A stretch of 64,000 bases of DNA from Cryobacterium sp. M96 (GTDB lineage Bacteria; Actinomycetota; Actinomycetes; Actinomycetales; Microbacteriaceae), in assembly GCF_002929845.1 (NCBI RefSeq), contig NZ_PJJS01000052.1, positions 62,001 through 126,000 on the forward strand, given 5' to 3'. This document shows positions 51,936 to 55,476 of this stretch, one piece after another. The notes under the pieces are model-generated. The model worked only from the letters and a program-made list of their open reading frames with translations, did no database searches and was not told the DNA's origin. The position numbers and the translations under genes are program-made. Numbering within the stretch: position 1 is the first letter of the stretch; every line of letters starts with the position of its first letter.

Positions 51936-52166
51936 CTGCGCGCCTGGCTTGTCTCCTACACAAAGCATGCAATAATTGTCAATAGGGCCCGTTCTGGTCC
52001 TGGGAGCAACGACAGCAGTGTCGGTGTGAATAGCCCGGGACTTGACATGGGTCCTAGTACTGCCCAAAATCCAAACTGCCCAGGCTCCTCTCCCGCTAGA
52101 CCCACCCGGTCGGGACCCGCTTGGCAGCGCCGCAGGCTCCCGCGCCACGGCATGAGAGGTGTTCGA
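51936..52166 (+). promoter_or_regulatory. Promoter and leader region of sigA
   Basis: An interval of 231 bases before the principal sigma factor. A TTGACA hexamer at 52042-52047 is the best -35 candidate; the matching -10 about 17 bases on is weak (CAAAAT), so the promoter is uncertain. A GAGAGGT ribosome site stands seven bases before the start codon. No gene is seen in the interval. Confidence 0.35.
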
Positions 52167-53474
52167 ATGGCAACCCGCAAAAAAATCGAGCAGACCGAAG
52201 AACTCACCGTGAGCACCACTGAGGTTTCAGACGCAGTTGCGCCGGCAGCCAAGGCCGCCGCGAAGAAGCCGACCAAGGCCGCTCTGGCCAAGGCCGCTAC
52301 TGCGGCAGCGGCCGCAGTAAGCGGTGAAGAGAAGCCCGCGCCGCGCAAGCGCGCCGCCAGCACGAAGGCGAAGGCCAAGCCGGCATCTGACGAACACGAT
52401 GAGGCCGCCCGCGGAGATGACGCGGATGCCGACGACGACTCCGACGAGGCCAAAAAGAAGCGCGCAGCATCCACCGAGGCGCTCCCGAGCGGCGCCCTGG
52501 TACTGTCACTGGTCGACGACGACGACGAGGTGCCGGTTTACTCCAGTGCAATCACGGGCGCGACGGCCGACCCTGTCAAGGACTACCTGAAGCAGATCGG
52601 CAAGGTCGCCCTGCTGAACGCCGCCGAAGAGGTCGAGCTCGCGATGCGAATCGAAGCCGGGCTCTTCGCCGAAGACAAGATGTCCCAGATGAGCGACGCC
52701 GAGAAGAAGAGCGCCCTCGGACGCGAGCTCATGTGGGTCGCCAAAGACGGCGCCCGCGCCAAAAGCCACCTCCTGGGGGCAAACCTTCGCCTGGTCGTCT
52801 CGCTCGCCAAGCGCTACACGGGCCGCGGCATGCAATTCCTCGACCTGATCCAGGAGGGCAACCTGGGCCTCATCCGTGCCGTCGAAAAATTCGACTACAC
52901 CAAGGGCTTCAAGTTCTCCACCTACGCGACCTGGTGGATCCGTCAGGCGATCACGCGTGCTATGGCCGACCAGGCCCGCACGATCCGTATTCCAGTGCAC
53001 ATGGTCGAGGTCATCAACAAACTCGCCCGCGTCCAGCGCCAGATGCTTCAGGACCTCGGCCGGGAGCCCACCCCGGAAGAGCTGAGCCGCGAACTGGATA
53101 TGACCCCGGAGAAGGTCGTCGAAGTCCAGAAGTACGGCCGCGAACCCATCTCCCTGCACACTCCGCTCGGTGAGGACGGCGACAGCGAGTTCGGCGACCT
53201 GATCGAGGACACGGAAGCCGTTGTGCCCGCGGACGCCGTCGGGTTCACGATGTTGCAGAAGCAGCTGGAAAGCCTGCTCGACTCGCTCTCCGAACGAGAA
53301 GCCGGCGTCATCCGCATGCGCTTCGGCCTCGGGGACGGCATGCCGAAGACCCTCGACCAGATCGGCGACACGTTCGGCGTGACGCGTGAGCGCATCCGTC
53401 AGATCGAGTCGAAGACCATGGCCAAACTGCGTCACCCCTCACGGTCGCAGTCCCTACGCGACTACCTCGAGTAG
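52167..53474 (+). CDS. sigA: Principal RNA polymerase sigma factor
   Basis: A 435-residue group 1 sigma-70. The N-terminal 100 residues are Ala/Lys-rich then acidic, as in other actinobacterial HrdB/SigA. Then come region 1.2 ([16 protein letters not shown]), region 2 ([30 protein letters not shown] in parts, [25 protein letters not shown]), region 3 ([14 protein letters not shown]) and region 4 ([21 protein letters not shown]) with the -35-binding helix. The Trp pair in YATWWIRQ melts the -10 element. ATG at 52167 has a perfectly spaced GAGAGGT; ATG at 52152 is less likely. It is followed eight bases later by murT. Confidence 0.97.
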
Positions 53475-53482
53475 AGCTCGTT

Positions 53483-54751
53483 TTGCGCTACGCACCGGCG
53501 ATTCTTCTGGGACGCATCGTACGGAAATTGGCCCGGTGGCGGAAGCCGGGCGGCGGATCCGCGATCCCGGGTCTCGTGGTCAACAGGATCGCACCCGGAT
53601 TCCTTCCGCGCAGCCTGAACAGCTTTCCGGGCGGCCTGGTCATCGTCACCGGGTCGAGCGGCAAATCAACGACGACCAAGATGCTGGTCGCAGCGCTCCG
53701 CGCTCACGGTACCGTTGTCTTCACCAACCAGTCCACGGCCAACATCAGCCAGGGTCTTACCTCCGCGCTGCTCGAGCAGGCCAGCCTGAGCGGTCATATC
53801 GCGGGCGACATCGCCGTGTTGGAGATGGATGAGGGCCACGGAGCCCTGATCTCTGGTACGTTGACGCCGCGCGTCGTTGCGCTGACGAACGTCATGGTCG
53901 ACCAGATCGACCGATTTCATGACTCGAACATGGTCGCGGCCATGCTCGCCAAGATCGCCGCCAGAGCCACCGGAACCGTCGTGGTCAACGCGGACGACCA
54001 GTATTTGACCGACCTCGCCGCACGCCTGCCCGTTTCCTCGGCAGTCGCGCGCTACGGCGTGTCCGCCGACGTTCTCGCCGACAATCCGCGGGGCTTAGGC
54101 TACAGTGCGACCACCGCCACCAGGCTGGACGCGGGGGAGGGGATGCTCCTCACCTCGGTGCAGGGCCGCCGCGCCACCGTGAGCATTGCGGGTGTGGATT
54201 ACCCGCTCGGGTTGCCCGCCCGCGGAACGCACTATGCCGTCGACGCCCTGACCGCGCTGTGCACGGCGCAGGCCGCGCTCGGCGACCGCTTCGATCCGGT
54301 GCTGGCCATCAACGCCATCTCGGCCATCCCACCGGTCTTCGGCCGTGGTGAGATCGTCACGGTTCGAGGCCAGCAGGTGGAATTCGTACTGGTGCAGAAC
54401 CCGGCCAGTTTTCAGCTGAACGTCGACAGCCTCGAGCCGAAGACCGAGCAGATCCTCATCGCAATCGGGTCAGACGTGCGCGACCCGTCCTACTTTTGGC
54501 CCGTCAACACCTCGGGTCTGGGCCGGGTCCGTATCGCATCCGGTTCGAAGGCGCACGATATTGCCCTTCAGCTGGTATACGACGACGTCGTCGTCGACCG
54601 CATCGAGCCGAACCTGGGCCTGGCCCTGGACGATTTCCTGGCCCTGCCCGAACCGCTGGCGGGTTTGAAGACGATCATCTTCTCCGCAGACTCCATGCGA
54701 CGCACCAGGACGCATCTGGGGCTCGTCACTAACAAGGAGGAGCAGGAATGA
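53483..54751 (+). CDS. murT: MurT-like Mur ligase-family protein
   Basis: A 422-residue Mur-ligase-fold protein of the MurT group, the ATP-using subunit that amidates D-Glu in lipid II. The P-loop GSSGKST (57-63), TNQSTANISQGLTSAL near 77, VLEMDEGHGA near 112 and DQIDRFHD near 140 are clear, as is a C-terminal DUF1727-like part (VLVQNPASFQLNVDSL onward). Two departures stand out. There is only one cysteine in the protein (ALCTAQAAL), so the four-Cys zinc ribbon of Staphylococcus MurT is absent. The C-terminal motif also reads DPSYFWPVN where I recall DVSWxWD. The TTG start is eight bases after sigA. It overlaps gatD by four bases. Confidence 0.85.
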   Translation: MRYAPAILLGRIVRKLARWRKPGGGSAIPGLVVNRIAPGFLPRSLNSFPGGLVIVTGSSGKSTTTKMLVAALRAHGTVVFTNQSTANISQGLTSALLEQASLSGHIAGDIAVLEMDEGHGALISGTLTPRVVALTNVMVDQIDRFHDSNMVAAMLAKIAARATGTVVVNADDQYLTDLAARLPVSSAVARYGVSADVLADNPRGLGYSATTATRLDAGEGMLLTSVQGRRATVSIAGVDYPLGLPARGTHYAVDALTALCTAQAALGDRFDPVLAINAISAIPPVFGRGEIVTVRGQQVEFVLVQNPASFQLNVDSLEPKTEQILIAIGSDVRDPSYFWPVNTSGLGRVRIASGSKAHDIALQLVYDDVVVDRIEPNLGLALDDFLALPEPLAGLKTIIFSADSMRRTRTHLGLVTNKEEQE

Positions 54752-55476
54752 CCCGTCCGCTCTCGATCGTGTCGCTGCTTCCCGAACTCCTGGGCACCAA
54801 CGGCGATGCCGCCAACGCCCGCGTTCTCGCCCAGCGGGCCCGATGGGCCGGTGCCGACGCCACGGTCGTGGAGGTGCGCTCCGCGGCCGATCTGCCGGAC
54901 CAGGTCGATGCCGTCGTCGTCGGATCGGGCTCCGACTCCGACATGGTGCGCGCCAGGGACATCCTCGCGACGATGACCACGGAGCTGCGCACCTGGGCCA
55001 CCGCGGGTGTCCCCATCCTCCTGGTCGGAACCGGCTGGGAACTTCTGAGCTGGGGAATCGAACTCGCCGACGGATCCGTTGTCGAGGGGCTGGGCATCGT
55101 GGCCGGTCGCGCCGTCCCGATGCCGGCACGGGCCACGGATGACATCGTGGTCGCCTCCCGGTTCGGACGTCTGATCGGTTTCGAAAATCATCGGCGCAGC
55201 TATGTCGGTGGCGAGGCGGCACCGCTCGGCCAGGTGCTCTCCGGATCGGGCAATGGCGCGGGTGCGGAGGGACTGGTCATGGGTAGCGTCGTCGGGACCC
55301 ATCTTCACGGTCCCGTTCTCGCCAAAAACCCCGGACTGGCCGACCACCTGCTGCGTGCGGCCCTCGCTCGTATCGGTCACGAGTATTTGCCCGGTGACGA
55401 TTCACTGGCTGCCGACGAAATGGCACGAGCCGCACGCAATCAGATTGCGGTGCGGCTCGGACTCCCCATGGAATAG
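54748..55476 (+). CDS. gatD: GatD-like glutamine-amidotransferase-fold protein lacking the catalytic Cys
   Basis: A 242-residue class I glutaminase-fold protein, partner of MurT. The whole frame aligns with GatD: GSGSDSDMVRARDIL near 59-73, VPILLVGTGWELLSWGIELADGS (88-110, in parts), VEGLGIV, GFENHRRSYVGG near 144 and GTHLHGPVLAKNPGLAD near 183. In GatD the nucleophile Cys94 lies in xICGGYQ; here the position is Gly94 (VGTGWE), and the protein has no cysteine at all. The catalytic His (His187) is kept. It therefore cannot hydrolyse glutamine by the usual mechanism. Coupled to murT by an ATGA overlap, which argues the complex still exists and works differently. Confidence 0.82.
   Translation: MTRPLSIVSLLPELLGTNGDAANARVLAQRARWAGADATVVEVRSAADLPDQVDAVVVGSGSDSDMVRARDILATMTTELRTWATAGVPILLVGTGWELLSWGIELADGSVVEGLGIVAGRAVPMPARATDDIVVASRFGRLIGFENHRRSYVGGEAAPLGQVLSGSGNGAGAEGLVMGSVVGTHLHGPVLAKNPGLADHLLRAALARIGHEYLPGDDSLAADEMARAARNQIAVRLGLPME

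Follow-up and report, generated by a model that had tools for sequence, protein, structure and literature searches.

What does a MurT/GatD pair do once its glutaminase nucleophile is gone? MurT/GatD is a glutamine-dependent amidase that is discussed as a drug target, with an operon called universal in Actinobacteria (PMC6085368). The question is raised by a locus in Cryobacterium sp. M96, in a window of 64,000 nucleotides (the whole stretch of DNA that was analysed), where a GatD without any cysteine is encoded next to a MurT. Most sampled Microbacteriaceae retain such a pair, in two sequence lineages and at one locus, after what appears to be the dismantling of its glutaminase. To our knowledge, no enzyme is known for the first bond of group B bridges on the D-Glu alpha-carboxyl, and the literature searched, mostly titles and abstract openings, named none. 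The Cys-less pair is a concrete candidate enzyme for this carboxyl, where group B bridges begin.

The Cys-less pair and its active sites

The locus is compact, with 8 bases between the sigA stop and the murT start and a murT/gatD overlap of ATGA.

52026..53474, + strand: sigA, by similarity a primary sigma factor, commonly found upstream of Cys-less pairs in Microbacteriaceae
53483..54751, + strand: murT, Mur-ligase subunit, TTG start, 422 aa, one Cys (residue 260), no CxxC
53651..53668, + strand: MurT P-loop GSSGKS at residues 57-62; every aligned Cys-partnered ribbon-less MurT row has Thr in place of Ser58
54482..54484, + strand: MurT Asp334, retained; it aligns with Asp349 of S. aureus MurT, which completes a proposed glutaminase triad (PMC6113224)
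54748..55476, + strand: gatD, putatively glutaminase-dead GatD, 242 aa, zero Cys
54799..54801, + strand: GatD Asn18, at the position of the S. aureus gate Tyr17
54925..54927, + strand: GatD Ser60, at the position of the oxyanion-hole Gly
55027..55029, + strand: GatD Gly94, at the position of the nucleophile Cys (VGTGWE, residues 93-98), by alignment to S. aureus Cys94
55129..55131, + strand: GatD Arg128, retained, glutamine-binding in S. aureus GatD (PMC5871853)
55306..55308, + strand: GatD catalytic-type His (GTHLHGP), present here and lost in many relatives

These features bear out what the first-pass annotation of the sequence had described, namely the Cys-free GatD with intact GTHLHGP and GFENH motifs, the MurT with a single Cys, a P-loop and no zinc ribbon, and the gene order. 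A second, Cys-containing pair, whose presence that annotation had counted against its own reading, was not seen in the Cryobacterium sp. M96 genome (one MurT_C match; one GatD match, E <= 1e-5). The nearest named locus is that of Cryobacterium cryoconiti (L172), with identities of 96% for parE, 88% for MurT and 76% for GatD.

GatD matches Pfam GATase_3 (8e-14) and S. aureus GatD (5n9m, 1.3e-25). The best PDB match of its predicted single-chain model (pLDDT 97.3) is 6gs2_A (TM 0.88), and on this model the window GatD has the GatD fold (class I GATase, CobB/CobQ-like). MurT matches Mur_ligase_M (PF08245, 2.3e-16) and the MurT of PDB 7q8e (4.2e-18), reaches 24.3 bits on MurT_C, slightly below the cut-off of 25, and scores better on MurT models than on MurE or MurF models. 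With the lipid II isoglutaminyl synthase MurT/GatD of S. aureus, S. pneumoniae and S. pyogenes, the pair shares adjacent genes, a Mur ligase and a class I GATase fold, but it lacks the nucleophile, gate Tyr, oxyanion Gly and zinc ribbon of that enzyme and falls below the NCBIfam equivalog cut-offs (GatD, 104.7 of 450 bits; MurT, 75.9 of 800 bits).

Across 118 Cys-containing GatD rows, Tyr17, Gly60, Asp63, Cys94, Gln98, Arg128, Glu147, Asn148, His149 and His189 are invariant (the site counts exclude L335, which has the Cys but is missing its His end). Among the 82 rows of lineage A, one of two Cys-less lineages described below, Tyr17 is found in none, Gly60 in 4, Gln98 in 21 and His189 in 56, with Arg128 (76), Glu147 (70) and Asn148 (69) better kept. 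The 14 rows of lineage B keep Arg128 (12), Asp19 (13) and the structural glycines, and none has His189. Judged from these alignments, the glutaminase is dismantled in a concerted way, with gate Tyr and oxyanion Gly affected along with the nucleophile, and more than one residue is gone. Of the proposed triad, the GatD His (GTHLHGP) and the MurT Asp (RDPSY) are present in the window.

In S. aureus, GatD variants C94A, H189A and R128A have zero glutaminase activity (PMC5871853), and C94G or C94S abolishes amidation (PMC6085368, PMC6113224). By analogy with these mutants, glutamine-driven amidation by the Cys-less pair is very unlikely. The S. pneumoniae residue Tyr30, which plugs the ammonia passage (PMC6085368), corresponds to S. 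aureus Tyr17, since the 13-residue offset is the same as for Cys107/Cys94.

In lineage A the P-loop of MurT is intact, and most rows also retain the N-x-DD and Asp349-type motifs known from lipid II MurT. Relative to 62 ribbon-less, Cys-partnered rows, the lineage A MurT shows Thr58 to Ser, Asn254 to Asp and Gly309 to Ser, each in 98% of rows, and Arg356 to Lys in 90%. The missing zinc ribbon had also been taken as a sign of new function, a reading we rule out: among Cys-type loci in other families of the order with MurT > 380 aa, two CxxC motifs occur in just 7 of 44, so ribbon loss is common among Cys-type relatives too and is untied from Cys loss. Because the other 37 lack the two motifs, the ribbon is not a defining trait of MurT here. 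Such Cys-type pairs are ribbon-less like the window pair and keep Cys, His, gate Tyr and oxyanion Gly.

Distribution and lineages of the Cys-less pair

MurT was found (E <= 1e-40) in 122 of the 149 genomes of a Microbacteriaceae draw and, at this threshold, not in the other 27. At the 90 family loci read (30 taken from the search, 60 retrieved separately, window locus included), GatD is Cys-less in 79 and has Cys in 11; the residue at the Cys position of the 79 is Gly (52), Ala (13), His (6), Ser (4), Asn (2) or Thr (2). Three genomes (G113, G050, G060) have one Cys and one Cys-less GatD each. Outside the family, in samples of the order and phylum, Cys is present at 105 of 110 loci read, which are part of the matches (a clear GatD in 70/198 genomes of the order sample and in 106/216 of the phylum sample, E <= 1e-20). 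The difference between 79/90 Cys-less loci in the family and 105/110 loci with Cys outside it indicates that the loss is more than chance. Many genomes from several families of the order sample had no clear match to GatD or to MurT_C (68/198 with a match to the latter), few candidates being scored per genome. The five Cys-less loci outside the family, four from one family (L284, L286, L287 and L288, code f53) and one from another (L285, f32), lie outside the window's class and combine a zinc-ribbon MurT with a GatD that lacks both Cys and His and has GNAPE or similar and WIIGP or similar as motifs.

Linkage to sigA accompanies the Cys-less type within the family. The sigA C-terminus lies upstream of murT on the same strand at 74 of the 79 Cys-less loci, two of them (L045, L085) with a gap of ~0.6 kb; of the remaining five, L014 and L017 have a flank too short to judge, and L068, L069 and L084 have no sigA within ~1 kb. 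No sigA was found upstream, in the short flank examined, at any of the 11 Cys-type family loci or, unlike the window, at any of the 110 outside loci. Gaps of 0.5-1 kb between sigA and murT occur at the named loci L160, L180 and L184. L068 (genome G111) and L069 (G145) are additional Cys-less copies beside a sigA-linked pair. A contig titled Stenotrophomonas maltophilia P13 (L186) carries a Microbacteriaceae-type sigA and is likely contamination.

Phylogenies of concatenated MurT and GatD (FastTree, 128 rows; IQ-TREE, 56 rows) were built with the two catalytic columns removed, and in both the Cys-less rows fall into two groups. Duplicates (L001, L092, L099, L107), a GatD split over two frames (L067), two frame-broken loci probably from a mixed bin (L255, L256) and one Cys-type locus (L101) were left out of trees and site counts. 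Lineage A holds 80 rows in FastTree (99% support) and 19 in IQ-TREE (100%), and in IQ-TREE it joins ribbon-less Cys pairs (100% SH-aLRT), a grouping from which the zinc ribbon seems to have been lost earlier than the Cys. Lineage B holds 9 mostly ribbon-bearing rows in each tree (97% in FastTree, 96% in IQ-TREE), and in IQ-TREE takes in three of the five outside Cys-less loci, the only three entered. The trees favour two independent origins of Cys loss, which we do not claim as proven: an AU test fails to reject a single origin (p 0.173), with long branches in play.

Lineage B (L080-L087, L154; L284-L288) is Cys-less like the window pair, and within the family it is mostly sigA-linked (L080-L083, L086, L087 and L154, with the wider gap at L085 and none in reach at L084). 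Unlike the window pair, it has a ribbon in most rows, Ile or Leu in place of the His, and no GFENH. The first-pass annotation had tied Cys-less GatD to the group B family; the tie holds for lineage A, seen only in Microbacteriaceae among the samples read, and fails for lineage B, which is also found outside. Members of one genus code may carry either lineage (g45, L018 and L081; g35, L035 and L083; g62, L071 and L087), a mixture that suggests replacement and shared function. The Glaciihabitans MAG RYN_57 (G343; L154, L252, L255) has sigA-linked pairs of two lineages, one of them frame-broken, and is probably a mixed bin.

In 13 hand-picked close pairs, all of lineage A, dN/dS is 0.09-0.21 for GatD and 0.02-0.20 for MurT. 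By this measure both murT and gatD are under purifying selection.

Comparison with peptidoglycan type

A scan for the sigA C-terminus yielded 80 named loci, and 45 named genomes, 44 of them Microbacteriaceae, were searched whole for GatD (E <= 1e-15). Of the 44, 18 have only Cys-less GatD and 22 have none; Leifsonia aquatica has one GatD of each kind, and all three Leucobacter genomes have Cys GatD only. At this threshold GatD was not found in 16 of 18 Microbacterium, 2 of 3 Salinibacterium, the one Gulosibacter (Gulosibacter chungangensis), Pseudolysinimonas yzui, Microcella alkaliphila and Yonghaparkia sp. Root332, nor, outside the family, in Brevibacterium ravenspurgense. The other two Microbacterium and Salinibacterium soli carry a Cys-less pair. 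In the 149-genome draw, presence and absence are mixed within at least five genus codes (g7, g9, g54, g55, g77).

Mur_ligase_M proteins number five in 11 of 12 GatD-less genomes and six or seven in 10 pair-bearing genomes. Five is the number accounted for by MurC, MurD, MurE, MurF and FolC, members not being assigned singly. The twelfth GatD-less genome, Gulosibacter chungangensis (G362, L185), has seven and possibly holds extra Mur ligases.

In the bridges themselves, Gly comes first in Microbacterium and a diamino acid comes first in genera with diaminobutyrate (DAB). Published wall types for genera in this comparison include DAB and B2gamma for Cryobacterium (Table 3, PMC7033078), DAB and B10 for Glaciihabitans and Lys/Orn and B for Salinibacterium (PMC7033078), B2gamma for Agreia and Subtercola (PMC5945732) and for Herbiconiux (PMC10011130), B-type with DAB and GABA for Leucobacter chironomi (PMC4511665), DAB or D-Orn for Gulosibacter (PMC6113628), and type B with Orn or Lys for Microbacterium (PMC11319209). 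The Agreia wall is noted as L-DAB with D-Orn. Our literature search found no wall papers on Yonghaparkia or Microcella. Four pair-bearing named genera have a DAB wall (Cryobacterium, Glaciihabitans as two MAGs, Agreia and Herbiconiux); the pair also has hosts beyond DAB genera, as Salinibacterium soli and the two Microbacterium belong to Lys/Orn genera. The diaminobutyrate aminotransferase model TIGR00709 was uninformative as a proxy for DAB walls, with 28 of 149 genomes over the cut-off, both with and without the pair, and the window genome below it. Glycine is carried on D-Glu in Micrococcus luteus. In Intrasporangium calvum, which has a type A wall, glycine sits on the D-Glu alpha-carboxyl (PMC3035309), so substitutions of this carboxyl are wider than group B.

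In the first-pass annotation, the pair was proposed to form the first bond of the B-type bridge, taken here as a role across group B peptidoglycan in general. The chemistry is suitable, the family is the right one, and lineage A keeps to Microbacteriaceae among the samples read. Against this stand the 22 GatD-less family genomes, most Microbacterium among them, the five Mur ligases in all but one of the GatD-less genomes tested, the Cys GatD of Leucobacter and the mixed presence within genus codes. A universal role is thereby ruled out and the proposal largely refuted, unless the GatD-less genera use another enzyme; we consider it very improbable. The broader idea of a repurposed ligase fares better, with a glutaminase apparently lost as a set, MurT motifs kept, selection on both genes and a lineage A limited to the family in its favour; its extension to B-type bridges in general falls away.

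Candidate functions of the pair

Our preferred reading, at a probability of about 0.3, is that the pair lost its glutaminase and has been retained for a different task, the joining of an amine, perhaps a diamino acid, to the D-Glu alpha-carboxyl. MurT would still activate this carboxyl of lipid II with ATP, and the attacking amine would come from a source other than glutamine. The likeliest acceptor would be the amino group of a free D- or L-diamino acid, for example diaminobutyrate or ornithine, bound in the remodelled pocket of GatD, and the outcome would be either the opening bond of a B-type bridge or a capped carboxyl, in some Microbacteriaceae lineages only. MurE/MurF-type ligases combine ATP-dependent acyl-phosphate chemistry with an amino-acid nucleophile, which they would have in common with the window pair if this reading is right. 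An amino acid as nucleophile is favoured by the retention of Arg128 together with a changed MurT, and the DAB walls of four host genera, Cryobacterium among them, fit a diamino acid. Counting against this reading are Leucobacter, DAB-based and B-type with Cys GatD only, the hosts in Lys/Orn genera, the aminotransferase model that did not follow the pair and the presence of lineage B outside the family, and recurrent loss inside at least five genus codes would be surprising if the enzyme formed the sole cross-link.

Those recurrent losses fit a dispensable modification, and the pair may still be an amidase that makes iso-D-glutamine from free ammonium, with GatD, its gate open, in a purely structural role. 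S. aureus MurT/GatD takes ammonia directly at pH 8.5, with GatD still required (PMC6085368), which favours ammonia-driven amidation as the losses do; the requirement would explain why GatD is retained, and without the gate Tyr the pocket would stand open. Arg128 is unneeded for ammonia, though, and is kept in most rows of both lineages, and lineage A MurT carries its own substitutions. With the D-Glu alpha-carboxyl amidated, the group used by B-type bridges would also be blocked. We regard ammonia-driven amidation as possible but somewhat unlikely, and the amino-acid reading as having a small lead over it.

The altered active sites of both subunits and equivalog scores far below cut-off are also what might be expected if the pair is some other ligase, with a different carboxyl or substrate as its target, or if GatD regulates MurT. 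This is quite conceivable, if short of probable; the P-loop of lineage A MurT, and the N-x-DD and Asp349-type motifs in most of its rows, speak against it. That the pair is a remnant in the process of being lost could be read from the family genomes with no MurT at E <= 1e-40 and from partial GatD matches at a few loci (L078, L079, L088), but the low dN/dS of both genes and the linkage of nearly all Cys-less loci to sigA make it improbable.

Returning to the joining of a diamino acid, its most specific form is that a pseudo-glutaminase complex starts the B-type bridge in the DAB and ornithine Microbacteriaceae, with GatD as the amino-acid-binding subunit and unrelated enzymes acting in Microbacterium and Leucobacter; taken whole, we think this rather unlikely. 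The five Mur ligases of Microbacterium suggest that a further, non-Mur enzyme acts in that genus, if the first bond is enzymatic there.
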